From: a virus
Virus record (IMG/VR): IMGVR_UViG_3300005518_000002
Location: 17,860-81,859 of that record
Direction: 5' to 3' (one strand)
DNA length: 64,000 bases
In this document: in pieces, positions 51,123-64,000 of the stretch
Numbering within the stretch: position 1 is the first letter of the stretch
Layout of the letters: the number at the start of each line of letters is the position of its first letter
The notes under the pieces: generated by a model
What the model was told of the DNA's origin: nothing
The model's database searches: none
The model's input: the letters and a program-made list of their open reading frames with translations, nothing else
Translations under genes and position numbers: made by a program

Positions 51123-51123
51123 G
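51102..51123. terminator. Perfect hairpin within the repeat cluster
   Basis: CCTGACACG-ATCA-CGTGTCAGG. A 9-bp stem containing two of the hexamers. It may end the translocase transcript or be a paired binding site. Confidence 0.5.
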
Positions 51124-51155
51124 AACACTGAACACAGAGAAACGGAAAGATCATC

Positions 51156-51365
51156 ATGACTCGTATCCTTGCCCGCTGGACGGCGGAGATCGTCGTCTTT
51201 GTGGGTGCCCTCATAGAGATCTACTTGTTCGCCAGCCTGCTCCCCGGGGACAGTGTCGATCTCCCTGTCGGCGGCACCCTGGTGACCATGCTCCTGATCG
51301 GAGCAGTCACCGCCGCTGTCGCCATTCCGCTCTGGTCGCACGGCCGCAAGCGCGACCGTGCCTAG
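51156..51365 (+). CDS. Two-span membrane protein
   Basis: A 69-aa protein. Helices IVVFVGALIEIYLFASLL and LVTMLLIGAVTAAVAIPLW, ending in a basic tail. Start in the GATCATCATG context. It lies in the conjugation-like block, where small membrane proteins are usual. Confidence 0.6.
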   Translation: MTRILARWTAEIVVFVGALIEIYLFASLLPGDSVDLPVGGTLVTMLLIGAVTAAVAIPLWSHGRKRDRA

Positions 51366-51480
51366 GCATCACCACGGGCGCCGGGGACACCGTCGCCGTC
51401 ACAGCGGGAACGGAGACCTGATCTTCTGGGTCGGCCTGTTCCTCACCATCGTCTGGATCGCGGACCACTATGGAAAATGA
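51358..51480 (+). CDS. Possible small His-rich membrane peptide
   Basis: A 40-codon frame from GTG 51358: a His/Arg-rich start then one hydrophobic helix (DLIFWVGLFLTIVWIADHYG). It overlaps both neighbours. There is no clear ribosome site; an initiation nearer 51418 is possible. Tentative. Confidence 0.35.
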   Translation: MPRHHHGRRGHRRRHSGNGDLIFWVGLFLTIVWIADHYGK

Positions 51481-51862
51481 GATCGAGCGGCGGCAGCGCC
51501 TCGGGGAACTCACCGAGTACCTGCGGACGCAGCCGCTCACGAACACAGACCAGGGACAGCACGTCCACATCCACTACCACCAGGCGCCCGCCAGTACAGC
51601 GCCGGTCGACCAGAACCCGGGACAGAGCGTCCTGGACAAGTACACCCCGTACTTCATCCTGCTCCTGGCGGGGTGCGTGATCCTCGCGATCGTCGCGGTG
51701 ATCGCCGTCATCCTCCTGCCCATGGTCGTGACCATGCTGATCGCCGTTGCGGTCTGCCTGGGCGCGGTCGCCGTGCTGGCGCTGGCCGTCAGCGGCTCGC
51801 TGCGCAATATGCGGCTCCAGAAAATGGATGAAACCCTCCTGAAGAAAGTGATCAAAAAGTGA
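51470..51862 (+). CDS. Membrane protein with His-rich segment
   Basis: A 130-aa protein. A charged N-terminal helix, then GQHVHIHYHQAP (possible metal site), then two transmembrane segments (YFILLLAGCVILAIVAVIAV; MVVTMLIAVAVCLGAVAVLA) and a basic tail. Similar proteins follow traB-like genes in Streptomyces elements. Function unknown. Confidence 0.6.
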   Translation: MENEIERRQRLGELTEYLRTQPLTNTDQGQHVHIHYHQAPASTAPVDQNPGQSVLDKYTPYFILLLAGCVILAIVAVIAVILLPMVVTMLIAVAVCLGAVAVLALAVSGSLRNMRLQKMDETLLKKVIKK

Positions 51863-52545
51863 GCAGAGACCCGATGCTGGTGATCGTCCCCACCCGGGGA
51901 CGGCCGGAGAACATCGTCCGGCTGGAGGCCGCACTCACCGAGACCGGCACGATCGAGGCCGACTTCCTGTACGTGGTCGATCATGACGATCCGGCGCTGG
52001 ACGACTATCTCTCGCTCGGCCTGCGCCGGATCACGGTCATGCAGCGCCGGGCGCGTCTCGGCCGGACCCTGAACCATGTCTCCCAGCTCTACCGGGAGGC
52101 GTACGACGTGATCGGTTTCATGGGGGACGACCACTGCCCGCGGACCCCGGAATGGGACAAGCGGATCATGGACTCACTTCTGGAGGGCGCACCGCGGGTC
52201 GTCTACGGCAATGACCTCCTCCAGGGGGCGAACCTGCCGACGGCCGTCTTCATGCACAGCAGGATCATCAAGGAGCTCGGCTACATGGTTCCGGCGACCA
52301 TGGTCCACCTGTACCTGGACAACTTCTGGAAGGAGCTGGGCGCCGGACTGGACGGCCTGGTCTACCGGCCGGACGTGGTCATCGAGCACATCCACCCGGC
52401 TGCGGGCAAGGCCCCGATGGACGACGGGTACCGTGAGGCGAACTCGTCGGAGCAGGACCGGGCGGACCGGGAAGCCTGGCTGGCGTACCAGCAGAACTCT
52501 CTGCCCTACGCGGTCAAGAGGATCCGGGAGGCGTACGACAAGTGA
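51859..52545 (+). CDS. GT-A type glycosyltransferase
   Basis: A 228-aa protein from GTG 51859, overlapping the previous stop. LVIVPTRGRPENIVRLEAAL is the nucleotide-sugar start, FMGDDHCPRTPEWD the metal-binding region, and GADLDGLVYRPDVVIEH-like C-terminus carries a late His. Cytoplasmic. First of two tandem transferases before an epimerase. Confidence 0.75.
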   Translation: MSRDPMLVIVPTRGRPENIVRLEAALTETGTIEADFLYVVDHDDPALDDYLSLGLRRITVMQRRARLGRTLNHVSQLYREAYDVIGFMGDDHCPRTPEWDKRIMDSLLEGAPRVVYGNDLLQGANLPTAVFMHSRIIKELGYMVPATMVHLYLDNFWKELGAGLDGLVYRPDVVIEHIHPAAGKAPMDDGYREANSSEQDRADREAWLAYQQNSLPYAVKRIREAYDK

Positions 52546-53138
52546 CCTTGAAATCAGGCGTAACAGCCGTCGTGTCTGCACACACTCCCCGTGTGCAGAC
52601 ACGCTTGCATTCCGCACTGGACAGTGTGCTGATGCAGACCCGTCCGGTGGACGCAATCAGCGTCTCCGTCGATCATCACCACGAAGGTGCCGCTGCCACG
52701 AAGAACCGGGCGCTGGCGGCCGTGGGCACCGAGTGGTCGGCCGTGCTGGATTCGGACGATCTCTGGTTCCCCGAGCACGTCGCACTCCTGCTCATGCATG
52801 CCGAGCAGACCGGAGCCGACATGGTCTACCCGTGGTTCGAGGTGGAGAACGGGTGGGATCCGTTCCCGATGTTCGAGGGCCAGCCGTTCGACCCGAACGC
52901 GCTCAACGAGCAGAACTACATCCCGACCACGGTGCTCGTCAGGACAGAGCTGTTCCGGAGCACCGGGGGCTTCCAGCCCCTGGGACCGGAGGAGAATCCC
53001 TGCGACGACTGGGGGGCCTGGCACGCGCTGCGGAACGCGGGAGCGAAGATCGAGCACCTGAACCGGCGGACCTGGAAATGGGTCTGGCACGATACGGACG
53101 GGGACCGCAACACCTCGGGGAGGGGGAACGCGTGGTGA
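52542..53138 (+). CDS. GT-A type glycosyltransferase
   Basis: A 198-aa protein coupled to the previous one by GTGA. GVTAVVSAHTPRVQTRLHSA, GAAATKNRALAAV, AVLDSDDLWFPEH (DxD) and NPCDDWGAWHALR match the transferase at 45743 in order and spacing, so the two are probably paralogues. It has no membrane helix. Confidence 0.75.
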   Translation: MTLKSGVTAVVSAHTPRVQTRLHSALDSVLMQTRPVDAISVSVDHHHEGAAATKNRALAAVGTEWSAVLDSDDLWFPEHVALLLMHAEQTGADMVYPWFEVENGWDPFPMFEGQPFDPNALNEQNYIPTTVLVRTELFRSTGGFQPLGPEENPCDDWGAWHALRNAGAKIEHLNRRTWKWVWHDTDGDRNTSGRGNAW

Positions 53139-53287
53139 GGAAGAAGGCCACCCGCGACGGACCGGAGAAGTGCATCCATGGTCACCGGTACGACGAGAAG
53201 AACACGTACCGGCACAAGGGGAAGAAGTTCTGCCGGAAGTGCCATGCAGCGGGCCAGCGTGCGCGCCGGAGGAGGGGGGCCGCGTAA
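53135..53287 (+). CDS. Small zinc-finger-like basic protein
   Basis: A 50-aa protein from GTG 53135. CIHGHRYDEKNTYRHKGKKF followed by CRKCH gives four Cys/His ligands of the type seen next to HNH genes in phages. Strongly basic end. It overlaps the HNH gene by one base. Confidence 0.6.
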   Translation: MRKKATRDGPEKCIHGHRYDEKNTYRHKGKKFCRKCHAAGQRARRRRGAA

Positions 53288-53598
53288 TGATCAAAACCCT
53301 GCTGGTCACGGACAACGTGATCCGCCCGCAGCAGTGCGAGCTGTACCGGGGGCACACGTGTGCTGTGGTCAACAAGCACCACATCTGTCCGGAGTCCTGG
53401 TGGCACGCGGCCGGAGTCCTGGTGGACACTCCGATGATCGTGCTGTGCCCGAACTGTCACTACAACACGCACGCAGCCATCGACGGCATGATCCGGGAGC
53501 GGGACCTGCACTGTCTGCCGCCCCGCTGCATCAAGCTGGCGGAGCAGGCGTTCACGCTCGCTCTTGCCGCCGGTCTCACTCCCGCCCTTACTCTCTGA
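53287..53598 (+). CDS. HNH-type endonuclease-like protein
   Basis: A 103-aa protein. CELYRGHTCAVVNKHHICPE and VLCPNCHYNTHAAID give the two Cys pairs and His-His/Asn/His of a beta-beta-alpha metal nuclease. It may nick DNA. The fact that it lies between glycosyltransferase and epimerase genes may mark it as a homing-type intruder. Confidence 0.65.
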   Translation: MIKTLLVTDNVIRPQQCELYRGHTCAVVNKHHICPESWWHAAGVLVDTPMIVLCPNCHYNTHAAIDGMIRERDLHCLPPRCIKLAEQAFTLALAAGLTPALTL

Positions 53599-53607
53599 GG
53601 ACTGATC

Positions 53608-54519
53608 ATGAAGGCACTCGTCACCGGCAACAAAGGGTTCCTCGGCCGTCACTTCGAGGCTGAACTCGTCCGGCGCGGCTACGACGTGACCGGCCTGGAC
53701 ATCAAGACCACGAAGAGCCAGGACTGCCGGAGGTTCTTCCAGAGCTCGGAATCTCTGAAGAAGGAGTTCGATCTGGTGGTTCACGCCGCTGCTGTGATCA
53801 AGGGGCGGGAGACGATCGACGGGGCTCCGCTGGCCACCGCGGTGAACCTCGGACTGGACGCGGACATGTTCCGCTGGGCTTCGCTGGCCCGTCCGGGACG
53901 GGTGCTCTACCTCTCCAGCTCCGCCGCGTACCCCGTGTGGGCACAGGACGGGGAGCCCTCCTCCCCCTCCACGCAGGGTGGTCTGGGAGAGTTCTCGGTA
54001 GACGTCACCCGGGACGGAGGAGTCTCCCGGCCGGACCAGGTCTACGGCTGGAGCAAGGTCGTCGGAGAGGTGCTGACGCACGAGCTGCGCCGGACCGGCG
54101 TACCGGTCAGCGTGGTCCGGCCGTTCAGCGGATACGGCGCGGACCAGGACGACACGTACCCCTTCCCGGCCTTCGTCCGCCGGGCACTGGAGCGCCAGGA
54201 CCCCTTCGAGGTCTGGTGCGGCTCGTGCGTCAGGGACTTCATCCATGTCAGCGATGTGGTGGCGGGTGCGCTGGCCGTGGCTGAGGACGGCACCGAGGAT
54301 CCGGTCAACCTGTGCACCGGACGCGGGACCAGCTTCGACGACCTGGCAGAAATGATCACCGATGCCGTCGGATACTCCCCGGAGATCCTGGAACGGGCCG
54401 ACAAGCCGACCGGCGTCCGGCACCGTGTCGGAAGCACGCTGCGCATGTCCAAGATCTATGAGCCGGTGGTCACGCTGGAAGCCGGGATCGCGCTGGCGCT
54501 GGAGAAGTCGGCGGACTGA
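53608..54519 (+). CDS. NAD-dependent nucleotide-sugar epimerase (SDR)
   Basis: A 303-aa protein in the TGATCATG context after GAGGAC. KALVTGNKGFLGRHF nucleotide loop, VLYLSSSAAYPVW and VYGWSKVVGEVL (Tyr/Lys) and RPFSGYG. Member of the extended SDR family (GDP-mannose or UDP-glucose type). Probably prepares the sugar for the two upstream transferases. Confidence 0.85.
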   Translation: MKALVTGNKGFLGRHFEAELVRRGYDVTGLDIKTTKSQDCRRFFQSSESLKKEFDLVVHAAAVIKGRETIDGAPLATAVNLGLDADMFRWASLARPGRVLYLSSSAAYPVWAQDGEPSSPSTQGGLGEFSVDVTRDGGVSRPDQVYGWSKVVGEVLTHELRRTGVPVSVVRPFSGYGADQDDTYPFPAFVRRALERQDPFEVWCGSCVRDFIHVSDVVAGALAVAEDGTEDPVNLCTGRGTSFDDLAEMITDAVGYSPEILERADKPTGVRHRVGSTLRMSKIYEPVVTLEAGIALALEKSAD

Positions 54520-54552
54520 GCGTGTTGTGAGCCGCTTGGCGCAGGGTGTACT

Positions 54553-54564
54553 GTTTAACTAAAC
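54553..54564. promoter_or_regulatory. AT-rich palindrome upstream of the small-gene region
   Basis: GTTTA-AC-TAAAC, a perfect palindrome 31 bp before the ATG at 54596. Related in composition to the other AT-rich intergenic sites. Possible operator of the rightmost operon. Confidence 0.45.
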
Positions 54565-54595
54565 AACTGAAACAGACCAGGGACCAGTGATCATC

Positions 54596-55288
54596 ATGCG
54601 CACCGTCACCAGCACCCAGACCCTCCGCACCGTCATCGAGCGGGCCATCGCCAAGCAGCACCCGGTGACGATCTCGTACGTCACGGCCAGCGGCCGGAAT
54701 GTTGTCCGCACCGTGGAGCCCTACCGGATCAGCGTGTCGGCCGCTGGTGACGTCCTGGTCAAGACGATGGACCGCGAGTCGGGCGACTACCGCAGGTTCC
54801 GGCTCGACCGGATCACGCACTACACCGTGCACCGCACCTACTTCTCGATCAAGAACCCGACCCACCTGACGGAGGTCGTCCTGTCCGTCGACAGCGGCGT
54901 TCCGGCCACGGCAGCCGAAAAGATGACCATGATCCGCGAAGCGGTCCTGTTCACGATCAAGCACAGCAACGGCAACCCTGCCGACGTCGACATCGACGGA
55001 ACGGTCGGACTCCTTGCAGCGGAGACCGGGGAGATCACACCGAGCCGTATCTGGGAGGCAATCCGCATGAACAAGACCCCCGAGTACCGCACCAGCAACG
55101 GTGTGGCCATCCGCGCCGGTCTGCGGGTGCTCGACTACGACCGTAAGACCGGCAGCGTCGGCCACGCGCAGTTCACCCGCGGCGGCAGCTGTGACCCCGG
55201 TGGCGAGTACTTCAATGGCTGGTTCGAGGTCGTCCGGGACGACGGCAGCACGGCCCTGTTCAACGGTGAGCGCCTGCGGGCGCTCTGA
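54596..55288 (+). CDS. WYL-like or two-part hypothetical protein
   Basis: A 230-aa protein from the ATG at 54596. Residues 1-80 (LRTVIERAIAKQHPVTISYV, RTVEPYRISVSAAGDVLVKT, YRRFRLDRITHYTVH) closely follow the strand pattern of WYL domains, ligand-sensing modules in regulators. There is no N-terminal HTH. The C-terminal part (residues about 150-230) is unrelated and unknown. Confidence 0.55.
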   Translation: MRTVTSTQTLRTVIERAIAKQHPVTISYVTASGRNVVRTVEPYRISVSAAGDVLVKTMDRESGDYRRFRLDRITHYTVHRTYFSIKNPTHLTEVVLSVDSGVPATAAEKMTMIREAVLFTIKHSNGNPADVDIDGTVGLLAAETGEITPSRIWEAIRMNKTPEYRTSNGVAIRAGLRVLDYDRKTGSVGHAQFTRGGSCDPGGEYFNGWFEVVRDDGSTALFNGERLRAL

Positions 55289-55345
55289 CCCACCATCCCG
55301 GCCGGGAGGCAGACGCCTCCCGGCTCCGTCTATGAAAGGAAGATC

Positions 55346-55600
55346 ATGGCCAGGGACAAGTACCGGCACCGGACCGAGGACCGGGGGCGCGGCATCGTCG
55401 CCGTCTTCTCGGAGGGTCCGAGCAGCGAGGTGAACGCGGTCGACCGCGAAGGCCGGTCCTTCGCCAAGCGGGAGCTGACGTTCGAGCCGGGGCTGACCGG
55501 CAGGCCGGTTTCGGGCGGCGGCCGGTTCTACGACCATGGCGCCATGTACGAGGCGCAGCAGATCTTCGTCACGAAGAAGCTCACCCCGAGGGAGGACTGA
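55346..55600 (+). CDS. Small hypothetical protein
   Basis: An 84-aa protein, MARDKYRHRTEDRGRGIVAV..., after AAAGGAAGATC. Basic and Gly-rich, no hydrophobic segment. Unknown. Confidence 0.5.
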   Translation: MARDKYRHRTEDRGRGIVAVFSEGPSSEVNAVDREGRSFAKRELTFEPGLTGRPVSGGGRFYDHGAMYEAQQIFVTKKLTPRED

Positions 55601-55602
55601 TC

Positions 55603-55827
55603 ATGGCACGTAAAACCGACTACCCCACAGGCAATCCGAACGGCATGTCGTTCATCTGCAACAGGTGGGTGTTCACCGGTCCGCAGGGCTACCGCGTCCA
55701 GAAGCAGGGCGACAAGTGGAGCGTCGTCTCGTACACCGCGAACGACACGCGTCCGGTGTCCAGCGGTGCCCGGATGACCGAGGACGACGCGCACGCGCTG
55801 GCAGCCGAGCTGGCCGGAGGTCACTGA
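55603..55827 (+). CDS. Small hypothetical protein
   Basis: A 74-aa protein, MARKTDYPTGNPNGMSFICN..., in the TGATCATG context. Compact beta-rich core then a C-terminal helix (EDDAHALAAEL). Unknown. Confidence 0.5.
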   Translation: MARKTDYPTGNPNGMSFICNRWVFTGPQGYRVQKQGDKWSVVSYTANDTRPVSSGARMTEDDAHALAAELAGGH

Positions 55828-55829
55828 CC

Positions 55830-56306
55830 ATGCCGATTCGCGATGTCCTCCAGGCAGCCCTCCGTCGGCTCAGCTGGTCTCAGCACGAGATCGACACGGC
55901 GCTGACCGAGCTCCAGGAGGACGTACTGACGGACCCCACGCTGTCCGACCACACGGCCTACCGGGAACTGGCGGACGCAGTGGTGGAGCAGATCGGCTGG
56001 CTCTCCGGGGACGGGGACAGCTGGGACGGCGACGACGACGAACTGACCATCCTGAAGAACTGGCTCACGGTCTCCGGGAAGTGGCTGCCGGAGATGTACG
56101 CACACCTGACTGCGGAGAAGATCAGGTTCTGCTGCAACTGCCTCGCGGGAGCGGGCTCGTGCGATGCGGCGGCCGACCGGATCGACCCGTGGCTCTCCAG
56201 CACGGAGCACGAGAGCTGGGGAACTCTGGTCCGGAAGTCGGACGGCACCGAAGTGCCCTGGAAAATCATGAACGCCGTGGAAGTCCTGAGGAACAAGGAG
56301 AAGTGA
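55830..56306 (+). CDS. Acidic helical protein
   Basis: A 158-aa protein starting MPIRDVLQAALRRLSWSQHE with CGGAGG upstream. Acidic centre (DGDSWDGDDDE) and a CCNCLAGAGSC cluster. Unknown; acidity could suggest DNA mimicry. Confidence 0.55.
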   Translation: MPIRDVLQAALRRLSWSQHEIDTALTELQEDVLTDPTLSDHTAYRELADAVVEQIGWLSGDGDSWDGDDDELTILKNWLTVSGKWLPEMYAHLTAEKIRFCCNCLAGAGSCDAAADRIDPWLSSTEHESWGTLVRKSDGTEVPWKIMNAVEVLRNKEK

Positions 56307-56308
56307 CC

Positions 56309-56518
56309 ATGAAGAAGACGATCACCATCCGGCTCACGCTGGACAACATCGAGACCGCACTGAAGCCGGGCGACGTGTTCGCCGACGACCCCGAGTTCGG
56401 GGCTGTCCGGTCCGCCCGCAAGCACGCCAACGGCACGGACGCCATGGTGTACACCGACAAGGGCAGCCGGGACTCCCTCGGCCTGCCGCAGACCGTGCGC
56501 GTGATCCGGGAGACCTGA
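56309..56518 (+). CDS. Small hypothetical protein
   Basis: A 69-aa protein, MKKTITIRLTLDNIETALKP..., two bases after the previous stop, with AAGGAG. Alpha/beta composition. Unknown. Confidence 0.5.
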   Translation: MKKTITIRLTLDNIETALKPGDVFADDPEFGAVRSARKHANGTDAMVYTDKGSRDSLGLPQTVRVIRET

Positions 56519-56520
56519 TC

Positions 56521-56730
56521 ATGGAGAAGAAGCTGTACCTCGTGGGGGTTTCGCAGGGGGCTCCGGTGAGCGTCCTCGGCCCGTACCAGGAGAGCGAGCT
56601 CCGTCCGCTCATGACCGGCCGCAGGCAGCTGGAGGACGCGGGAGCCGACGAAGGCGTCTACCGGGCGCGGGCGCTCAGCGCCGAGGAAGCGCTGGCGCAG
56701 GTCGAGCGGGACCTGAGGGAAGGGAACTGA
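56521..56730 (+). CDS. Small hypothetical protein
   Basis: A 69-aa protein, MEKKLYLVGVSQGAPVSVLG..., in the TGATCATG context. Ends in an acidic helix (EEALAQVERDL). Unknown. Confidence 0.5.
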   Translation: MEKKLYLVGVSQGAPVSVLGPYQESELRPLMTGRRQLEDAGADEGVYRARALSAEEALAQVERDLREGN

Positions 56731-56732
56731 TC

Positions 56733-56945
56733 ATGGGACAGCGGGAACGGCTGGAAGCGCTGCGCAAGGACGCGAATGATCCGACACTTGAGGCCGGAGA
56801 CCTCGTGTTCTGCCGGGGCATCTACGCCAAGGTTCGGATGATCAGGGAACACAAGCCGGGTACACACTCGTGGTCACCGATCAAGAACGAAATGACGGCC
56901 CGGGAGATCGTGACAGACCTCGGCTCACGGTGGTTCGGACGCTGA
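56733..56945 (+). CDS. Small hypothetical protein
   Basis: A 70-aa protein, MGQRERLEALRKDANDPTLE..., with AAGGGAACTGATC before the ATG. A GDLVFCRGIYAKVRMI segment suggests a small beta barrel. Unknown. Confidence 0.5.
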   Translation: MGQRERLEALRKDANDPTLEAGDLVFCRGIYAKVRMIREHKPGTHSWSPIKNEMTAREIVTDLGSRWFGR

Positions 56946-57034
56946 GAGACCGGTCGGGTGCAGGGGCTGACGTCCCTGCACCCCCTCAGGCCGTCAGCCT
57001 GGAACAAGATCACAGACCAGCACGAGGAGAGATC

Positions 57035-57295
57035 ATGGAAAAGGGATACACCGTCGTCCAGGTCACGGACCTGGCCCCCGGGGACCGGATCGCGCAGGTG
57101 TTCCCCGTCAGGGAACGCGGCATCGTCCGCAAGGGGGAGCGGGTGGTGAAGATCCTGGACGTCCAGCCGGAGACGGTTGAGCGCTGGGGCGAGAAGCTTC
57201 CGGTCTGCCGCGTCCTCGGTATCGACCCTGATCAGGGGGACGGGGTCGTGAAGTGGCTGGCCGTGCCGTCCCGCCGGTACGTCGTCGTCCGCTGA
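57035..57295 (+). CDS. Small beta-rich protein
   Basis: An 86-aa protein, MEKGYTVVQVTDLAPGDRIA..., after GAGGAGAGATC. It is strand-rich and resembles small RNA- or DNA-binding barrels. The terminator follows 5 bp after the stop. Confidence 0.5.
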   Translation: MEKGYTVVQVTDLAPGDRIAQVFPVRERGIVRKGERVVKILDVQPETVERWGEKLPVCRVLGIDPDQGDGVVKWLAVPSRRYVVVR

Positions 57296-57299
57296 CTGA

Positions 57300-57317
57300 G
57301 GGGCCCTTCGGGGCCCC
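57300..57317 (+). terminator. Intrinsic terminator
   Basis: GGGGCCC-TTCG-GGGCCCC followed by TTCTTCCTT. A UUCG tetraloop closes the stem. It ends the upstream small-gene operon and isolates the following non-coding region. Confidence 0.85.
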
Positions 57318-57323
57318 TTCTTC

Positions 57324-57922
57324 CTTAAAAATCACGGTTTATTTTTAAAGCCCCAGGTCAGGGCGTTGATCGAAACTTTACAACGAGCCGGATTAGCTGT
57401 TTACTTAAAGCAGAACAACAAAACAGCACGACCGAGCCACCGGGGGTCCAATCCCCCCGGAGCCCGGGGAAGATCGGGAAGAGGACGCTACGGTCAGCCT
57501 CACCGGATCACCCCACAGGGGCAGCGGATCGGGAGTCGAGATCTTCTCCTCCCCCGCAGGATCGGAGCCCGGAACATAACCGGGCGGGTCACGCAGCAGA
57601 CCTCAAGCGCTCGTCGCAGCTGGAGACAGGCACCGGACCTCCGCAAAACCGGTAGACGAACCGAGTAGGAGATCGGGCGCGGCTGGCATGAGGGTCAGTC
57701 ACCGTACCTCCCAAAGGACGAGTCGGAAGCACCGGCCAGCAACGGCGTAAGGGCAGCGAGCTACAGACTGCATCTCACGGGGCCGCCGGTGACGCACTAC
57801 ACACGACCCTCCGCTCACAGTCGAAGTCCAGATATGACCCCGCACTGGAGTGACTGCCCGTTCGAGTCGGGCCCGGAGGGACCAACCGCACACCAACTGA
57901 AGATCACAACAAGGAGCACACC
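57324..57922 (+). ncRNA. Candidate large structured non-coding RNA
   Basis: About 590 nt with no convincing gene between a terminator and the next small gene. It starts with an AT-rich inverted repeat (57324-57350) that could hold a promoter. Hairpins: 57440-57460 (7 bp, loop TCCAAT), 57567-57585 (6 bp, loop AACATAA, like a CAU anticodon arm), 57632-57653 (5 bp), and a tRNA-like element at 57807-57881. Size and tRNA neighbourhood recall phage GOLLD and ROOL RNAs. No alignment was possible, so the identity is open. Several tandem degenerate tRNAs are the alternative. Confidence 0.45.
57807..57881 (+). tRNA. tRNA-like element lacking a normal D-arm
   Basis: A 75-nt unit. CCCTCCG pairs with CGGAGGG as acceptor stem. 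GCCCG-TTCGAGT-CGGGC is a canonical T-arm. Between them CAGTC/GACTG encloses TCCAG/CTGGA with a 13-nt loop, so there is no 7-nt anticodon loop or D-stem. It may be a decayed tRNA or a tRNA-mimic domain of the larger RNA. Confidence 0.4.
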
Positions 57923-58126
57923 ATGATGGAATTCCCCCTCGGCACGCCGGTCGCCTACAAGGGGTCCGAGCGGTGGCCCAGCGCCATCGCTGCTGTGGTC
58001 GTCGAGCCCTTCATCGTGAACGGCCAGACCGACCCCGAGCGCGTGATCATCGACTGCGGGCCGACCCGGTACGCCGCTCCTTACGACCGGGACACCCGGA
58101 TCGTCTGGACCGACCAGCTGACCTGA
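57923..58126 (+). CDS. Small hypothetical protein
   Basis: A 67-aa protein, MMEFPLGTPVAYKGSERWPS..., with AAGGAG before the ATG. Beta-rich, Tudor/SH3-like spacing. Unknown. Confidence 0.5.
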   Translation: MMEFPLGTPVAYKGSERWPSAIAAVVVEPFIVNGQTDPERVIIDCGPTRYAAPYDRDTRIVWTDQLT

Positions 58127-58231
58127 TCATCGCTATCCCCCGATAAGGCGAAACCGGCGCGAGCCGGTCGGCCGGAGATCACCTCCCGGTCCTGACGAGC
58201 CAGGTCAGTCCAACTGAATGACGGAGAGATC
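58127..58231 (+). other. Structured 105-nt intergenic stretch
   Basis: Contains ACCGGC-GCGA-GCCGGT with a GNRA loop, a GGAG-ATCA-CTCC-type hairpin and CCTG-ACGAGC-CAGG. It looks like an RNA element or an unusual tRNA. No protein start until 58232. Confidence 0.4.
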
Positions 58232-58525
58232 ATGGACAAGGACATCACCGTCCGGCGGCACTCGGCCGTCCCCGGCCTCAAGGACGTCCACCTGAAGGCC
58301 CAGCCCGCCTACACCTTCACCTACCGCGGAGAAAACTACTCCGCGGCCTACGACCGGCTGAGCGAGATGTGGAGCGTCAGCTGGGTGAGCTCGCCCGACG
58401 GTGCGACGCACCCCATGGCTGTGCGCTCCTCGCTGGAGCAGGCCGTGCGAGACGCCATGAGCGATGTGGACCTGATCGCCCGGCACCTCCCCAAGGTGCC
58501 CCAGACCACGACCCGGGAGAACTGA
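58232..58525 (+). CDS. Small hypothetical protein
   Basis: A 97-aa protein, MDKDITVRRHSAVPGLKDVH..., after ACGGAGAGATC. Beta-rich first half and helical end. Unknown. Confidence 0.55.
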   Translation: MDKDITVRRHSAVPGLKDVHLKAQPAYTFTYRGENYSAAYDRLSEMWSVSWVSSPDGATHPMAVRSSLEQAVRDAMSDVDLIARHLPKVPQTTTREN

Positions 58526-58527
58526 CC

Positions 58528-58740
58528 ATGCGTGACCTGACCGAGCCGGTCGACTGGCAAGTGCTCATCAGTCACCCAGCCTCACGGACTGAGTACCAGG
58601 AGGCCGAGACCAGCAGGGGCACAGTGGCCCGGGTGACCGAGGACGGGCACGAAGTCGTCTCCCCCAGCGGTGACACCGAGCAGGTGCGGCGGCAGTACAA
58701 CGGCCGGGTTCAGGCGTACCTGAAGTCCTACGGTCTGTAA
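58528..58740 (+). CDS. Small hypothetical protein
   Basis: A 70-aa protein, MRDLTEPVDWQVLISHPASR..., two bases after the previous stop. Unknown. Confidence 0.5.
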   Translation: MRDLTEPVDWQVLISHPASRTEYQEAETSRGTVARVTEDGHEVVSPSGDTEQVRRQYNGRVQAYLKSYGL

Positions 58741-58771
58741 ATCGCACCACCCGTGAACTGTACTGATCAAA

Positions 58772-58799
58772 GGCCCTCCACCGGCTACGGTGGAGGGCC
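58772..58799 (+). other. 12-bp perfect hairpin just upstream of tRNA-Glu
   Basis: GGCCCTCCACCG-GCTA-CGGTGGAGGGCC, five bases before the tRNA. It lacks a T-run. May be a processing signal or attenuator. A smaller hairpin occupies the same place before the second tRNA-Glu. Confidence 0.7.
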
Positions 58800-58804
58800 C
58801 GCCA

Positions 58805-58875
58805 GCCTCCATGGGGTAATGGATGCCCGCCGGGTTCTCAGCCCGGAGATGCCGGATCGTGACCGGCTGGAGGTA
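58805..58875 (+). tRNA. tRNA-Glu(CTC)
   Basis: A 71-nt cloverleaf: acceptor GCCTCCA/TGGAGGT (one G-T pair), D-arm GGGT-AATGGAT-GCCC, anticodon arm CCGGG-TTCTCAG-CCCGG with anticodon CTC, T-arm GCCGG-ATCGTGA-CCGGC. All stems pair. The T-loop lacks the usual TTCRA start, which is odd. No CCA is encoded. Confidence 0.8.
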
Positions 58876-58916
58876 CGCAGGAACGACCAACTGAACAGGA
58901 CCACAGGGAGATCGCT

Positions 58917-59201
58917 ATGAGCACTGCTGCCAGGCCGACCTGTCTGGAGCTCGCAGTCAACTGGGAGCGCGGCTGGAAGGTCTACGAAGTGACCGGCACC
59001 CGGCACGCGCATTTCCTGCTGAAGAAGCTCGCTGCTCGCGACGGCTTCCTGGGAGCCCGGCTGCGGGATCTGCTGTACGAAAGTGACGGCACGGTGACGA
59101 ACAACGTCCTGATGTTCTCCAGCCAGGACATCCTGTACGGCAGCGAGAAGTTCGGCGCGCTGCTGGACCGGGGCAACAGCAACTATGACCTGGAGCACTG
59201 A
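58917..59201 (+). CDS. Small hypothetical protein
   Basis: A 94-aa protein, MSTAARPTCLELAVNWERGW..., after AGGGAGATCGCT. Alpha/beta mix. Unknown. Confidence 0.55.
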   Translation: MSTAARPTCLELAVNWERGWKVYEVTGTRHAHFLLKKLAARDGFLGARLRDLLYESDGTVTNNVLMFSSQDILYGSEKFGALLDRGNSNYDLEH

Positions 59202-59207
59202 TCGACC

Positions 59208-59268
59208 CCTCTGTCCGGATGGAACGGGCCGCGACCGCCTCGGGCGGGGAAGCCGGTCCGGACGGAGG
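59208..59268 (+). ncRNA. 61-nt stem-loop element next to a tRNA-like gene
   Basis: A 12-bp stem (CCTCTGTCCGGA with TCCGGACGGAGG, one T-G pair) encloses a CCGCC/GGCGG hairpin. It ends four bases before the tRNA-like unit at 59273. It could be a tRNA leader or a degenerate tRNA. Confidence 0.45.
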
Positions 59269-59272
59269 CCAT

Positions 59273-59340
59273 GCCGGGGATATCCAGCGGGTGCTCGCGT
59301 GATCAGCACGCCCCCGGGGGTTCGAGTCCCCCGCCCGGTA
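59273..59340 (+). tRNA. tRNA-like gene, possible anticodon GTG (His)
   Basis: 68 nt. Acceptor GCCGGGG/GCCCGGT with one mismatch at the inner pair. T-arm GGGGG-TTCGAGT-CCCCC is canonical. The anticodon arm TGCTC-GCGTGAT-CAGCA has a C-C mismatch at its top and places GTG as anticodon, with C instead of T at position 33. The D-arm is shortened (ATCC-AGC-GGGT, sharing bases). Possibly a defective or divergent tRNA. Confidence 0.4.
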
Positions 59341-59370
59341 CGCAGGAACACAGACCAAGGAGGACCAGCC

Positions 59371-59544
59371 ATGGATGCAAAGGGATTCAAGATCACTAAG
59401 AAGGAGGTCCGGGGACGGGTCCTCGTGACCTGCTCCGAGCACGGGAAGCTCGCGGTTCACGGCGGAGACTTTCCGTGGACGGCCGCACAGGTCACGGAGT
59501 GGACCCACGCCCGCGACGTGCACCGCGTGCCCGTCACCTTGTAA
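59371..59544 (+). CDS. Small hypothetical protein
   Basis: A 57-aa protein, MDAKGFKITKKEVRGRVLVT..., with AAGGAGG before the ATG. Contains CSEHGK. Unknown. Confidence 0.55.
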   Translation: MDAKGFKITKKEVRGRVLVTCSEHGKLAVHGGDFPWTAAQVTEWTHARDVHRVPVTL

Positions 59545-59546
59545 CT

Positions 59547-59900
59547 GTGGACGGCACATGTCCGGCGGGGCGGCACGCCTACCCCGCGACACGCATGGCC
59601 ACGATGAGCGAAGGCAAGCTCCGGTTCTACTGCGGCGGTTGCCGAAGGGACCGGGACGGAGCCCGGAGGGAGCGGGACTACCAGCCGTACGAGCCGGACA
59701 TGGAAGCCGTGAAGCGCGCGGTGTACGGCGATCCCCCCGAGTACCTGCATCCCGCGGAGCGCCGCCTGGCAGCGGAGGAGATCTACGCCGTCCCGCTGCC
59801 GCGCCGCCTCAGTCTCTCCGTATCGGCGCAGCATCTGCGCTGCACTCCCCGGCACGTCAGCTGGCTGTTCAAGAAGATCAAGGAAGCGAAAGAGGGGTAA
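59547..59900 (+). CDS. Zinc-ribbon-like protein with C-terminal helical domain
   Basis: About 117 aa from GTG 59547, two bases after the previous stop. This start keeps CPAGRH, which with CGGCRR makes a plausible zinc ribbon. The ATG of MATMSEGKL is an alternative. A basic helical end (RCTPRHVSWLFKKIKEAKEG) may be DNA-binding. Confidence 0.5.
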   Translation: MDGTCPAGRHAYPATRMATMSEGKLRFYCGGCRRDRDGARRERDYQPYEPDMEAVKRAVYGDPPEYLHPAERRLAAEEIYAVPLPRRLSLSVSAQHLRCTPRHVSWLFKKIKEAKEG

Positions 59901-60154
59901 TGGTCACTAAGAATCAGGCGCTGAGCGTCAACGACTTCCACTACGGCACCTGTACCCGCGAGACGGGACCCCGTGGCGGCGTGAAGGAGCGCATCGAGCG
60001 CTGGCGTCGCAACGGGTCCACCCAGACCTGGAAGACCCGTCCGCGGGAGTTCCGCCTTCCGGTCAAGTACGGCATGCGCGGCTACAGCGTGATCACTCAG
60101 GACAACGCGTCCGACTTCCACACCGAAGCGGACTGTCCGCTGAATGGAGGCTGA
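59900..60154 (+). CDS. Small basic protein
   Basis: An 84-aa protein, MVTKNQALSVNDFHYGTCTR..., whose ATG shares a base with the previous stop. Arg-rich centre (VKERIERWRRNGS). Unknown, possibly nucleic-acid binding. Confidence 0.55.
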   Translation: MVTKNQALSVNDFHYGTCTRETGPRGGVKERIERWRRNGSTQTWKTRPREFRLPVKYGMRGYSVITQDNASDFHTEADCPLNGG

Positions 60155-60156
60155 TC

Positions 60157-60402
60157 ATGGGTGCCACGTACAGCACGGTCCGCATCAGCCCGGTCCGGGT
60201 GGGCAACGGTCTCTGGAACCGCTGGGACTTCACCCGGGACGGTGCCACTGTCGGTGAGATCACCGAAACGGAGCGAGGCTACGTGGGCAAGCTGTTCGGT
60301 CCCCACGGACCGAACGGCAGGCCCGCGTTCACCGGCTGCGAGCTGCCGTTCCGGCAGTCGGTATTCGACCAGCTGACCAAGCAGGACGAGAAGAGGAGCT
60401 AG
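60157..60402 (+). CDS. Small hypothetical protein
   Basis: An 81-aa protein, MGATYSTVRISPVRVGNGLW..., in the TGATCATG context. Beta-rich. Unknown. Confidence 0.5.
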   Translation: MGATYSTVRISPVRVGNGLWNRWDFTRDGATVGEITETERGYVGKLFGPHGPNGRPAFTGCELPFRQSVFDQLTKQDEKRS

Positions 60403-60404
60403 CT

Positions 60405-60707
60405 ATGGCAATGGGGCAGGACCAGCGGGAAAAGGCACTGGACAGTCTGCGCGGCTGTTCACCTTTCAGGAGCGCGAACAGTGCCCTGTCGGCCGCGTAC
60501 GGGTGCCAGGGCACAGGAAAGCTGGACCACGAATACAAGGCCGATGCCGAGTCGGCCGGTTACGTGGTCTACAGCTACGAGACGCCTATCGCCTGGATCC
60601 GGCAGGACGGCACGCGGGTCATGCCGTCCGCCCGCTACAGCCAGGTAACGGCTCAGCACAAGGGCATCGTCCGTCAGGCATGGGCGGGGCGTGTGCGCGA
60701 GATCTGA
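60405..60707 (+). CDS. Conserved actinophage small protein (DUF8033-like pattern)
   Basis: A 100-aa protein. SANSALSAAYGCQGTGKLDH, AESAGYVVYSYETPIAW and a YSQVTAQHKG end follow a pattern I recall from many small phage and plasmid proteins (YSxxT..H with SYxTPIA). Biochemical role unknown. Confidence 0.6.
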   Translation: MAMGQDQREKALDSLRGCSPFRSANSALSAAYGCQGTGKLDHEYKADAESAGYVVYSYETPIAWIRQDGTRVMPSARYSQVTAQHKGIVRQAWAGRVREI

Positions 60708-60787
60708 TCTCCGCCCGGCTGCACAGCCTCCGGTCTGTGCAGCCTGCGAGGCTGATCAGCCTTGACCACCGAGTGCCAGGAGACCAC

Positions 60788-60913
60788 ATGAACAAGATCG
60801 TCCGGCTTCTCTCCACTCTGTTCGGCAGCTGCCCCTCGGGTGGCGATCACCTTCCGGGCACGTCCGGTGAATGGGTCGGCCGCTGTACCAAGTGCGGCAA
60901 CCCCACCAGCTGA
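60788..60913 (+). CDS. 41-aa zinc-knuckle peptide
   Basis: MNKIVRLLSTLFGSCPSGGD... ending RCTKCGNPTS. One Cys plus a CxxC pair. AGGAGACCAC before the ATG. Unknown. Confidence 0.5.
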   Translation: MNKIVRLLSTLFGSCPSGGDHLPGTSGEWVGRCTKCGNPTS

Positions 60914-61009
60914 TGGCAGGGACCAAGCGCCCCGGAGGGCTTCAGCCCAAAGGGCCCTGGGACAACAGGCCGCAGCCTCCGAGCCCCGGCCGTATGCAGT
61001 GACGACACC

Positions 61010-61037
61010 GCCGCCCGGAGCCTGAGCTCCGGGCGGC
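61010..61037 (+). promoter_or_regulatory. 12-bp hairpin abutting a ribosome-binding site
   Basis: GCCGCCCGGAGC-CTGA-GCTCCGGGCGGC ends one base before CGGGAGGG, the ribosome site of the gene at 61050. The gap 60914-61049 has no other gene. It may control translation of the next gene or end the upstream transcript. Confidence 0.55.
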
Positions 61038-61049
61038 CGGGAGGGAAAC

Positions 61050-61373
61050 ATGCCAAAGATCGTTCTTCTTCAGCCGTCGGAGTACACCGACCACATCACC
61101 GCCGACGGTACGCAGCTGACCAAGCTGCCGTATCCGGTCGGTGTGCACATGGACGGCTCCGTCACCAATCAGGAGTTCTGGCAGGGCGACCCGTATCGGG
61201 TCATCGGCTTCCAGCGTGACCTTGCCCGGCACGAGATCGACGTGTGGTGGGCCGAGGTCTCCCGTGATCCGCAGAAGGCCGTCGGTCTGTACCTGGTCAC
61301 CGGGGACAGCAAGGGCGGCATGGGCGTGCACCAGACGGCCATCTCCAGCGTTGAGGTTCTGGGATCCGAATGA
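61050..61373 (+). CDS. Hypothetical protein
   Basis: A 107-aa protein, MPKIVLLQPSEYTDHITADG..., with GGGAGGG upstream. Ordered alpha/beta pattern (PYRVIGFQRDLARHEIDVWW). Unknown. Confidence 0.55.
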   Translation: MPKIVLLQPSEYTDHITADGTQLTKLPYPVGVHMDGSVTNQEFWQGDPYRVIGFQRDLARHEIDVWWAEVSRDPQKAVGLYLVTGDSKGGMGVHQTAISSVEVLGSE

Positions 61374-61462
61374 AGAGGATCCAGATCACGAAGACCAGGC
61401 GGCCGACCGGTCCGCCGGACATCGACACCCGGACGCCGTCCGGCCGACCCCTGCCGTACTGA
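61370..61462 (+). CDS. Possible 30-aa basic peptide
   Basis: MKRIQITKTRRPTGPPDIDT..., ATGA overlap with the previous stop. Short and Pro/Arg-rich. Supported only by coupling. Confidence 0.35.
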   Translation: MKRIQITKTRRPTGPPDIDTRTPSGRPLPY

Positions 61463-61472
61463 GGGAGGGGCC

Positions 61473-61712
61473 GTGCAGACGAAGTTCGAACACGAAGTCG
61501 CGTACCTGATCGGCCGCCGGTATCACGTCTCCATATCGAAGACCGGGGGAGGCACCGTCGGTCGCCGGTACGACGGCGACTGGTCGTACGCGATCAGGAG
61601 CCAGAACTACCGGGGCAAGCTGCTGATGTTCGGCAGCGACCTGTCCACCGGCAATCCGTCAACCCACCGCGAGGCCGCGGAACTCGCGGTCGAGATGTAC
61701 GAGGGGATCTGA
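61473..61712 (+). CDS. Small hypothetical protein
   Basis: A 79-aa protein from GTG 61473 after GAGGGAGGGGCC. MQTKFEHEVAYLIGRRYHVS... with a helical end. Unknown. Confidence 0.55.
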   Translation: MQTKFEHEVAYLIGRRYHVSISKTGGGTVGRRYDGDWSYAIRSQNYRGKLLMFGSDLSTGNPSTHREAAELAVEMYEGI

Positions 61713-61714
61713 CC

Positions 61715-61924
61715 ATGAGGATGGCGTACCCCAACCTCACCTGGGAGAAGGCCAGCTGGCCGGACCAGACCTATCAGGCCAGGCTCGGGGAGTGGTCGTT
61801 CACCATTGACTACGTCGGCCCGGAATGGCGCCTGCGCGGCTGGCACTCCAAGGAATTCTCGGCCTGCCGTTATGCCAGGACCGCTGCTGAGCTCCAGCAG
61901 TGGGCCGACGACAACGTTCAGTAA
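61715..61924 (+). CDS. Small Trp-rich protein
   Basis: A 69-aa protein, MRMAYPNLTWEKASWPDQTY..., with six tryptophans. GEWSFTIDYVGPEWRLRGWH suggests a beta-sheet. Unknown. Confidence 0.55.
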   Translation: MRMAYPNLTWEKASWPDQTYQARLGEWSFTIDYVGPEWRLRGWHSKEFSACRYARTAAELQQWADDNVQ

Positions 61925-61932
61925 GGATGATC

Positions 61933-62112
61933 ATGGACAAGTGCACGAAGTGCGGCATCGCACACCCGCCCAGTCTCAAGCAGTGCGAGGGCTGTTCCGG
62001 TCCGCTGGAGAGCTACCTGAAGGCATACGAGAACGGCTGTCTGAAGGTGACATGGACCCTGTGCCCCTCGCACTACTCGCAGACGCTCAGCAGTCACCAC
62101 GACGAATACTGA
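61933..62112 (+). CDS. Small zinc-ribbon protein
   Basis: A 59-aa protein from the second ATG (61933) of ATGATCATG. MDKCTKCGIAHPPSLKQCEG followed by CSG gives two CxxC knuckles. Unknown, maybe nucleic-acid binding. Confidence 0.55.
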   Translation: MDKCTKCGIAHPPSLKQCEGCSGPLESYLKAYENGCLKVTWTLCPSHYSQTLSSHHDEY

Positions 62113-62124
62113 TCAAGCACGACA

Positions 62125-62140
62125 CCCGGCTTGCGCCGGG
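62125..62140 (+). other. Small hairpin before the second tRNA-Glu
   Basis: CCCGGC-TTGC-GCCGGG, three bases before the tRNA. Mirrors the 12-bp hairpin before the first tRNA-Glu. Confidence 0.6.
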
Positions 62141-62143
62141 CCA

Positions 62144-62214
62144 GCCTCCATGGGGTAACGGATGCCCGCCAGGCTTTCAATCTGGAGATGCCGGATCATG
62201 ACCGGCTGGAGGTA
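62144..62214 (+). tRNA. tRNA-Glu(TTC)
   Basis: 71 nt, nearly the same as the tRNA at 58805: acceptor GCCTCCA/TGGAGGT, D-arm GGGT-AACGGAT-GCCC, anticodon arm CCAGG-CTTTCAA-TCTGG with anticodon TTC, T-arm GCCGG-ATCATGA-CCGGC. Differences lie mostly in the anticodon arm and keep pairing, so the pair is a duplication under selection. Same odd T-loop. Confidence 0.8.
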
Positions 62215-62248
62215 CGCACCGCAACTGAACAACGACCAAGGAGCTCAC

Positions 62249-62479
62249 ATGAAACACGAAGGCCAGCTCGTCGTACCGGCAGTGAACCGGCTGGAGGTCA
62301 TGCCGTACTGGCCGATGTACGCGGACTGGATCGACCACCTGAACGAGTGTGCCCAGTGCGGCACCGTGATGGTCAGCGGCGATCAAATGATCAGCGGCCT
62401 GTGCCCGGAGGGCCAGACGCGTCAGCAGGATCTCCAGCACGACCTGATGGCTCAGTCGTCAATGGCCGCGCTCAACTGA
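62249..62479 (+). CDS. Small protein with CxxC
   Basis: A 76-aa protein, MKHEGQLVVPAVNRLEVMPY..., with AAGGAG. ECAQCGT and a later Cys may bind zinc. Unknown. Confidence 0.55.
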   Translation: MKHEGQLVVPAVNRLEVMPYWPMYADWIDHLNECAQCGTVMVSGDQMISGLCPEGQTRQQDLQHDLMAQSSMAALN

Positions 62480-62491
62480 AGAGGAGAAGTC

Positions 62492-62809
62492 ATGGCAACG
62501 GCAAGCGCAGTGAGCCGGTACCTCGGTCAGACGTTCGCCCGGGCCGAGAGCTGGACGACGCGGGTGAAGGGCTGGCACAACTACAGCTCCGGGTTCGAGG
62601 TCCGGATGATCGGCTACGGAGAGAACCGGGGGAAGGTTCAGGTCGACCACAGCCTCGGGGACCACGGCCACCGGATGACCCCGGAACAGCGGGCGCCGAA
62701 GATCCGGAGCATGATCTCCGAGTACCGACAGAAGCTGGAGATCCGGTATTCGGTGGAGGTCGTCGCCGGGGGCACGCAGCTGATCGTGTCGGACAAGGGG
62801 AAGTCGTGA
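62492..62809 (+). CDS. Hypothetical protein
   Basis: A 105-aa protein, MATASAVSRYLGQTFARAES..., with AGAGGAGAAGTC upstream. Helical start, then a beta sheet with a helix (PKIRSMISEYRQKLEIRYSV). Unknown. Confidence 0.55.
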   Translation: MATASAVSRYLGQTFARAESWTTRVKGWHNYSSGFEVRMIGYGENRGKVQVDHSLGDHGHRMTPEQRAPKIRSMISEYRQKLEIRYSVEVVAGGTQLIVSDKGKS

Positions 62810-63006
62810 AGCCGCTGAAGGTAGGTGACCGGGTTGTCGTCACCCCGTCTGCTAAGGGTCCGGTCAAGGGCAGTCGCGGAAAGGTGGTCTCGGTGTATGC
62901 CCACGGCCGTGGCTACGGCGTACTGCTCGACTGGAAGTACGACCACCTCCAGCTGCCGTGCGCGTTCAAGCCGAACGAGATCAGGCCGGAGGACGAGAAG
63001 TCATGA
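62806..63006 (+). CDS. KOW/SH3-like small barrel protein
   Basis: A 66-aa protein from GTG 62806 (GTGA overlap). KVGDRVVVTPSAKGPVKGSRGKVVS is a KOW-like turn found in RNA-binding and transcription-elongation proteins. Unknown partner. Confidence 0.55.
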   Translation: MKPLKVGDRVVVTPSAKGPVKGSRGKVVSVYAHGRGYGVLLDWKYDHLQLPCAFKPNEIRPEDEKS

Positions 63007-63224
63007 AGACAGGGTTCACCGCAGCGGAGCTCCGCAGGGCACAGTCCGAGGGGGCGAAGATCATGGCGTATGACACTGAGGTGGAGTACAAGCCCTCCCG
63101 GGACCGGGACGTCACGCCCTGGCGGGCTCTCGGCTCCCGGGTACGCTACCGGTCCACAGAATGCCGTCCTGTGGAGCCCCGCGGGGGTGGCCCCTGGGCG
63201 GTGGCCAGGCTCATCAGGTTCTAG
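63003..63224 (+). CDS. Small basic protein
   Basis: A 73-aa protein, MKTGFTAAELRRAQSEGAKI..., ATGA overlap with the previous stop. Arg-rich second half. Unknown. Confidence 0.5.
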   Translation: MKTGFTAAELRRAQSEGAKIMAYDTEVEYKPSRDRDVTPWRALGSRVRYRSTECRPVEPRGGGPWAVARLIRF

Positions 63225-63270
63225 CGTCAGACGGCCGTACAAGCCCGCCGGGGGGCCAATCCCGGCACCC

Positions 63271-63342
63271 GCCCCTGTAGCTCAGCCGGAAGAGCGGCCG
63301 CTTTAAAACCGGCACGCACAGGTTCGAATCCTGTCGGGGGCA
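63271..63342 (+). tRNA. tRNA with anticodon TAA (would read UUA)
   Basis: 72 nt. Acceptor GCCCCTG/CGGGGGC, D-arm GCTC-AGCCGGAA-GAGC, anticodon arm GCCGC-TTTAAAA-CCGGC with a C-C mismatch at the top pair, T-arm ACAGG-TTCGAAT-CCTGT. The anticodon is TAA, a leucine anticodon, but the variable loop is only four bases whereas bacterial tRNA-Leu has a long one. The amino acid identity is therefore uncertain. Confidence 0.7.
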
Positions 63343-63369
63343 CTCGATCACGACCAGGGAGGAAAGGTC

Positions 63370-63558
63370 ATGGAAAAGAAGATCACGAAGGTGCGCGTCA
63401 GCATGCTGGTCGCGGTCGACGTGGAAGGCTACGCGAACGAGTACGGCCTGGAGCCGAAGCCCAACATCGTCCGCGCGGATGTGAAGCAGTACATCGAGGG
63501 GTGGATCAACGACGGCCCCGCGGGTTTCGAGTTCATGGAGATCATCGAACCGGGATAG
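63370..63558 (+). CDS. Small hypothetical protein
   Basis: A 62-aa protein, MEKKITKVRVSMLVAVDVEG..., after GGGAGGAAAGGTC. Alpha/beta mix resembling small phage proteins. Unknown. Confidence 0.55.
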   Translation: MEKKITKVRVSMLVAVDVEGYANEYGLEPKPNIVRADVKQYIEGWINDGPAGFEFMEIIEPG

Positions 63559-63569
63559 GAGAACAGATC

Positions 63570-63782
63570 ATGACCAAGACCATGGAAGACAAGGTCGAAC
63601 TGGTCCGGCTGAACCGGCTGTACCGCGAGGCCATCGGTTCGGAGTACTTCCTGTACACCGAACCGGCCGGTGGAGGAGACACCCGGTGGGTGTTCACGGA
63701 CGGCTCGGTGTACAGCCTGGACACTGCGCTTGTGCTCATGCGCGGAGCGCTGGAAGCCCTCGGTCTGGACTCCGTCCGATGA
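63570..63782 (+). CDS. Small hypothetical protein
   Basis: A 70-aa protein, MTKTMEDKVELVRLNRLYRE..., in the AGATCATG context after AGGAG. Unknown. Confidence 0.55.
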   Translation: MTKTMEDKVELVRLNRLYREAIGSEYFLYTEPAGGGDTRWVFTDGSVYSLDTALVLMRGALEALGLDSVR

Positions 63783-63997
63783 GCACTCCGGAGTGGGAAG
63801 GTCCCGCGTACCCGGATGTCTCGGTCCAGCTGTCCGGCCAGGACGGGAATGCTTTCGGCATCATCGGTTCCGTGTCCCGGGCCCTGCGCAGGGCGGGACA
63901 CCGGGAAGCGGCCGAGACGTTCTCCCGGGAAGCCGTGGACTCCCCGTCGTACGACGCGCTGATTCAGCTCGCCATGCGCACGGTGGACGTCCGGTGA
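63779..63997 (+). CDS. Small hypothetical protein
   Basis: A 72-aa protein, MSTPEWEGPAYPDVSVQLSG..., ATGA overlap with the previous stop. QLSGQDGNAFGIIGSVSRAL followed by RRAG is a pattern I recall from many small actinobacterial phage and plasmid proteins. Function unknown. Confidence 0.6.
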   Translation: MSTPEWEGPAYPDVSVQLSGQDGNAFGIIGSVSRALRRAGHREAAETFSREAVDSPSYDALIQLAMRTVDVR

Positions 63998-64000
63998 GCC

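Follow-up and report, generated by a model that had tools for sequence, protein, structure and literature searches.

A candidate family of structured non-coding RNA in Streptomyces phages, located in a long gap between viral genes

In the 64,000-nucleotide stretch of viral DNA analysed here (the window; the source virus record comprises 81,859 bases), 627 nt without a convincing gene separate the stop of one ORF at 57295 from the ATG of the next at 57923. We favour, with some confidence, the reading that this gap encodes a structured non-coding RNA belonging to a family present in Streptomyces phages, which would be freed from the message in which it is made and would act in trans. The original prediction had proposed a structured phage RNA akin to GOLLD and ROOL; conservation across unrelated phages, some compensatory changes and a constant arrangement in the relatives argue for a structured phage RNA, but the GOLLD or ROOL identity is not upheld. 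We class the RNA as a new family with an unusual 3′ module among the structured phage RNAs, which are a known kind.

Results

Content of the gap

The 627 nt compare with gaps of about 2 to 176 nt in the neighbouring gene chain, whose genes were chosen by eye from the ORF list, and the unusually long non-coding gap originally predicted at 57324-57922 is thus borne out. The following features were localized in and around it:

57300-57317, plus strand: terminator-like hairpin GGGGCCC-UUCG-GGGCCCC, with a perfect 7-bp stem, a UUCG loop and a weak T-run, closing the upstream operon
57325-57348, no strand assigned: AT-rich inverted repeat, with 8-bp perfect arms at 57325-57332 and 57341-57348 and an 8-nt spacer
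57377-57405, plus strand: tentative promoter TTTACA-17-TTTACT, recognized by eye
57408-57884, plus strand: proposed RNA, its 5′ end placed from the tentative promoter and its 3′ end from the tRNA-like element
57807-57884, plus strand: tRNA-like element with an exact 7-bp acceptor stem, a canonical T-arm (loop UUCGAGU) and an encoded ACCA; a D-arm is not evident
57923-58126, plus strand: downstream ORF of 67 aa, with no family match in Pfam or PHROGs
58146-58209, plus strand: type II hammerhead ribozyme, scoring 39.3 bits against a threshold of 37, located 22 nt before the ATG at 58232

The hairpin at 57300-57317 had been called a strong terminator; the perfect hairpin is present, but given its T-run and the absence of any call on it in the terminator scan, the word strong is not warranted. 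The AT-rich inverted repeat, also anticipated at the start of the gap, is the sole repeat of its kind in the 64 kb and did not occur in 40 dinucleotide shuffles; it is possibly an operator or an upstream promoter element. The surrounding segment (57318-57420) has an AT content of 60%, compared with 34% in the window. The promoter scan did not call the tentative promoter. A TTG-start frame of 100 codons in the ORF list (57366-57668), originally judged unlikely to be real, has no counterpart among the ten copies of the RNA that were examined, in which the longest frames vary in position and length, nor does the shortest related RNA (206 nt) contain one, in agreement with that judgement.

The combination of a 7-bp acceptor stem, a T-arm and CCA that defines the tRNA-like element was found once in the window and in none of 40 shuffles. 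Neither ARAGORN nor the Rfam models recognized a tRNA or tmRNA in the gap (tRNA model down to E 10), so that the "tRNA-like unit" of the original prediction is retained for its acceptor stem, T-arm and CCA, but not as a tRNA. Further along the window, ARAGORN placed tRNA genes scattered among small ORFs at 58805-58876, 59252-59341, 62144-62215 and 63271-63343; the last two were the only ones of these four dispersed calls to pass the Rfam tRNA threshold. The call at 59252, for an Ala tRNA, is odd in being 90 nt long and is perhaps a second tRNA-like element.

Relatives in Streptomyces phages

A sensitive blastn search with the gap against 50,697 phage records matched Yara (E 3e-5) and, weakly, five more Streptomyces phages (E 0.2 to 8), and all of these matches fall where no annotated feature underlies them. 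When the Wentworth and Yara copies were used as queries, nine Streptomyces phage records were reached in total (Yara, Wentworth, Dryad, Gibson, Rooney, phiRKBJ001, ShakeNBake, PHTowN and Lizz), some of the wider matches overlapping annotated genes; Gibson, ShakeNBake and PHTowN are known as BLAST matches only. The phages phiRKBJ001, Wentworth, Yara and others are assigned to the lytic cluster BN (PMC8852317). The sequence shared by these gaps is centred on one element:

57622-57655, plus strand: conserved 34-nt core, which recurs in the gaps of the relatives and possibly forms an H-type pseudoknot

Pattern scans located the core in IMG/VR contigs as well. A 24-nt core pattern has a single occurrence in the window and none in 100 shuffles, and one scan of bacterial genomes with the strict pattern returned no match. 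The contig that holds the window shares 99.5% identity with L009 over 12 kb, and the two were treated as one. The resulting set of 26 copies leaves out this twin, the truncated L026, and L001, L002 and L004, which duplicate other loci; it also lacks the second copies in L022, L030 and Lizz, which were found by covariance model and are too diverged for the core pattern. Three loci retrieved with a looser pattern (L038-L040) were discarded as apparent chance matches, and L015-L017, L019-L021, L023-L025 and L027 were dropped on the basis of GC content and context.

From 17 sequences other than the window, a covariance model was made for the central domain. It matched the window at 33.3 bits (E 3.5e-5 in a local search of 251,774 bases) and recovered both the core and the conserved hairpin Pa described below. 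Since the relatives had been picked by their core, core conservation and this match are partly circular; what the match confirms is homology across the 77 nt around the core, and it does not amount to an independent discovery. Of the 18 records searched with the model, 16 yielded matches. Each of 14 BN-type records contained a pair of them, with a weak third one in Wentworth (E 0.015); this phage and its 99.5% identical twin contained a single match apiece, and Daudau and Jevington were without any. Cluster BN phages carry the RNA as two paralogues.

The genomic background of the window is different. Proteins of the seven ORFs around its RNA had no match in the relatives' loci that were searched, which indicates that the RNA is common to these phages though its neighbourhood is not. 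Queries with the stretches 56500-59400 and 50000-63999 revealed no near relative of this phage among the 50,697 phage records, and a search through its FtsK-like gene led to the twin contig only. For its capsid and polymerase, distant relatives exist among phages of Streptomyces and of other actinobacteria.

Predicted structure and covariation

The folding energy of the whole gap is modestly better than that of shuffled sequences (z -1.69, with 5 of 100 shuffles as good), and that of 57408-57660 somewhat more so (z -2.26; 4 of 200 shuffles equal it). Several stable hairpins had been claimed for this region; multiple hairpins are indeed predicted, including CCCGG-AACATAA-CCGGG, but the gain in folding energy over shuffles is modest. 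The elements considered in the comparison with relatives are:

57440-57460, plus strand: hairpin CCGGGGG-UCCAAUC-CCCCCGG with a T-loop-like loop, compared in sequence with Yara
57568-57584, plus strand: hairpin with loop AACAUAA; judged from sequence, the Yara copy has a similar stem with a different loop
57586-57603, plus strand: conserved hairpin Pa (GGGUC/GACCU), outside the searched core
57622-57625 with 57639-57642, plus strand: possible pseudoknot stem S1 of the core
57632-57636 with 57649-57653, plus strand: possible pseudoknot stem S2 of the core

The Yara counterpart of the first hairpin, CCGAGGG-UCCAACC-CCCUCGG, keeps 7 bp with one pair altered on both strands. For Pa, all 25 pairs form over five sequence types (25/25), and at three of the five positions both partners have changed. 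When the 3′ strands were permuted, 2 of the 120 arrangements equalled this result, both equivalent to the identity given that two types share strands. The Pa register of the R1 copies was set by hand, a one-column shift with respect to the MAFFT alignment being needed for pairing; on the unshifted alignment, Pa pairs in only 56% of cells. All 13 R1 copies have one identical Pa hairpin, and because divergence is this low, the covariation rests on five sequence types.

Within the core, the window and the R2 copies have all of S1, the R1 copies only two of its four pairs; S2 shows one double change (L007). Pair counting on A2 gave a covariation score of 0.052 against 0.032 in shuffles, none of 500 shuffles scoring that high, and the tool count found a double change in 3 of 14 pairs, a value matched by 24 of 500 shuffles. 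Overall, we consider the evidence for RNA structure to be real yet moderate. A long helix after GUCGA, convincing by eye, was rejected by shuffling (89/2000 in the window and 640 to 1955 of 2000 in seven relatives).

Arrangement of the copies in cluster BN and in the window

In BN phages, the motif TTGC[CT]T-N17-CATAGT, which resembles a promoter, was found 15 times across 21 loci, always at the start of the RNA (15/15). A looser form precedes 20 of the 26 copies; the window copy has neither. Upstream of the motif, at L001:2210-2345 and equivalent BN sites, repeats CTACCAGGGCA / TGACCAGGTAG and A-tracts were noticed by eye and are possible operators.

At the other end, all 25 non-window RNAs (14 records) are followed by a type II hammerhead, beyond which comes a start codon, at +77 to +96 relative to the RNA in BN copies. 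Because the hammerhead served to define the 3′ ends of the relatives' RNAs, its proximity follows from the procedure; its presence does not. The window copy, the sole exception among the 26, has no hammerhead at its RNA 3′ end, and the tRNA-like element occupies the place where the relatives carry it. In every copy, the RNA lies on the strand of the next gene. These next genes vary, being gp79-like, gp91, others unmatched by gp79, gp90 or gp91 and, in the window, the unrelated 67-aa ORF.

One protein family (PHROG 20596, comprising gp79 and gp90) adjoins both RNA copies in BN phages (L012:3864-4337, L012:8047-8649 and homologues). It is not an obligatory partner, because neither the window nor the first 18 kb of its contig contains a match to it. 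Its paralogues share conserved N-terminal residues, and gp79-type members have a basic tail. The structure predicted for a gp90-like protein is of low confidence (mean pLDDT 70, pTM 0.33) and gave no match in the PDB at E 0.001; in BFVD, five matches were obtained at E ≤0.001, three of them nameless in the tables and the other two uncharacterized proteins, one from Arthrobacter phage Wollypog and one from Gordonia phage Lambo. The gp79-like gene after several copies also suggested a type III toxin-antitoxin system, in which a pseudoknot RNA adjoins a gene; this candidate was set aside, as Pfam and PHROGs revealed no toxin family.

Type II hammerheads

The hammerhead at 58146-58209 possesses the conserved core and three stems, with stem II open, scores above the gathering threshold and is predicted to self-cleave. 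It sits between the 67-aa ORF and the following gene, i.e., one gene downstream of the RNA. In our own scan, 70 type II hammerheads were found in 15 loci (some sharing a record) and none in 10 shuffles of each; they are located mostly 11 to 35 nt ahead of an RBS and start codon. The loci rich in hammerheads were L012, L013, L005-L008, L010, L011, L022, L029, L030, L041 and L042. The Rfam model, applied at E 0.01, detected a single hammerhead in this phage, 14 in Jevington and 9 in Daudau; 14 control genomes gave none.

Discussion

Proposed mode of action and alternatives

Under the reading that we favour, RNA polymerase would start at a promoter just past the upstream terminator and produce an RNA of 200-540 nt whose conserved centre consists of Pa and the pseudoknot-like core. 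In BN phages, the type II hammerhead at its own 3′ end would cut the RNA from the downstream message; in this phage, host tRNA-processing enzymes may do so at the tRNA-like element. Our best guess is that the freed RNA acts in trans while the infection proceeds, through binding to a protein of the host or the phage. A wider proposal, which we put forward tentatively and hold to be doubtful as a whole, is that these RNAs constitute a hitherto undescribed trans-acting class of phage RNA with an interchangeable 3′-end module (hammerhead in BN phages, tRNA-like element here) that has spread as a unit between unrelated Streptomyces phages.

A cis-acting 5′ leader that controls the adjacent downstream gene, either riboswitch-like or protein-bound, could likewise account for an RNA that always lies upstream of a same-strand gene, with the BN start codon 77-96 nt beyond it, and for the PHROG 20596 family next to the BN RNAs. 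We nevertheless consider such a leader unlikely, because the ribozyme between the RNA and the start codon would sever the two and because the downstream genes differ from copy to copy (gp79-like, gp91, unmatched others and the window's 67-aa ORF). It is the lack of relationship among these genes that leads us to prefer a trans-acting RNA.

It is considerably less probable that the conserved unit functions as DNA, as an operator, recombination or packaging site in which the S2 pairs are a DNA palindrome. A palindrome too can retain symmetric changes, such as the one that S2 has in L007, but an RNA is indicated by two hairpins (Pa and the T-loop-like one), by the strand being always the same, by the promoter-like motif and by the hammerhead at the 3′ end.

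Extrachromosomal prophages of cluster A mycobacteriophages use an RNA-based replication origin or primer, and the report on them describes a non-coding RNA region of ~400-500 nt that is expressed and needed for stable lysogeny (PMC7157519). These origins resemble the present RNA in being non-coding RNA regions of similar size in actinobacteriophages, and AT-rich DNA precedes the window RNA. The arrangement and lifestyle described for them differ: BN phages are described as lytic (PMC8852317) and carry two copies of the RNA per phage. We give an origin function little chance.

Decayed tRNA genes plus spacer, the outcome that was stated in advance to refute the RNA, would explain the T-arm, acceptor stem and CCA in the 3′ part and fit the other tRNA genes nearby. 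They would leave the core unexplained, which is shared with tRNA-poor phages: of the 11 other-phage loci scanned, 10 lack any tRNA call and the remaining one, L022, has a single call (three in L014, this phage), and the Rfam tRNA model finds nothing in the gap at E values up to 10. This explanation, which we regard as very improbable, is contradicted by cluster BN, whose phages are described as having no tRNAs (PMC8852317) and yet conserve the core and hairpin. A divergent GOLLD or ROOL RNA is hardly credible: the size, phage origin, nearby tRNA genes and multiple hairpins are similar (PMC12286853), but neither model matched at E up to 10 and one relative is just 206 nt long.

Comparison with known RNAs

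The Rfam covariance-model check called for in the original prediction was run and gave no match to GOLLD (RF02032) or ROOL (RF03087). The genome family searches likewise returned no match to GOLLD, and that for ROOL, which had no match in control genomes either, is weak evidence alone. Both families are phage-encoded, non-coding, structured and often near tRNA genes, as is the RNA described here; they differ from it in showing no sequence or structure match, and the relatives' RNA is shorter, with the BN copies having a promoter-like motif and a 3′ hammerhead. The RNA is akin to GOLLD and ROOL in size, phage origin and tRNA neighbourhood without belonging to either, and it matches no characterized phage RNA that we could identify. 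A P7-like match noticed by eye suggested a group I intron, which was dropped for lack of an Rfam match at E up to 10.

The BN 3′ modules and the element at 58146-58209 are of the same kind as the type II hammerheads (RF02276) of Perreault et al. 2011, where intergenic type II hammerheads of phages and a triple arrangement in Agrobacterium are reported (PMC3088659). The hammerheads found here differ in that they are many per phage, lie just before start codons and include one that ends each BN RNA. The tRNA-associated theta ribozymes of gut phages offer another parallel, being small ribozymes positioned so as to release the end of an RNA within a phage transcript; they are HDV-like and adjoin genuine tRNAs (PMC10879173), whereas the present ones are hammerheads beside a new RNA. 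In the literature covered (titles and abstract openings, with subscription papers and preprints mostly outside it), we found no description of this RNA or of many hammerheads per Streptomyces phage.

If transcribed, the RNA would represent a phage RNA family lacking annotation in the named phage records examined and undetected by Rfam 15. Natural type II hammerheads, whose purpose has been a standing question, would gain a definite role from the constant 3′ hammerhead. BN phages have been isolated and grow on laboratory Streptomyces, so the function of the RNA is directly testable by deletion.

Elsewhere in the window, a helicase-like ORF of 896 aa (35288-37978) has an apparent intein inside, as judged by eye.
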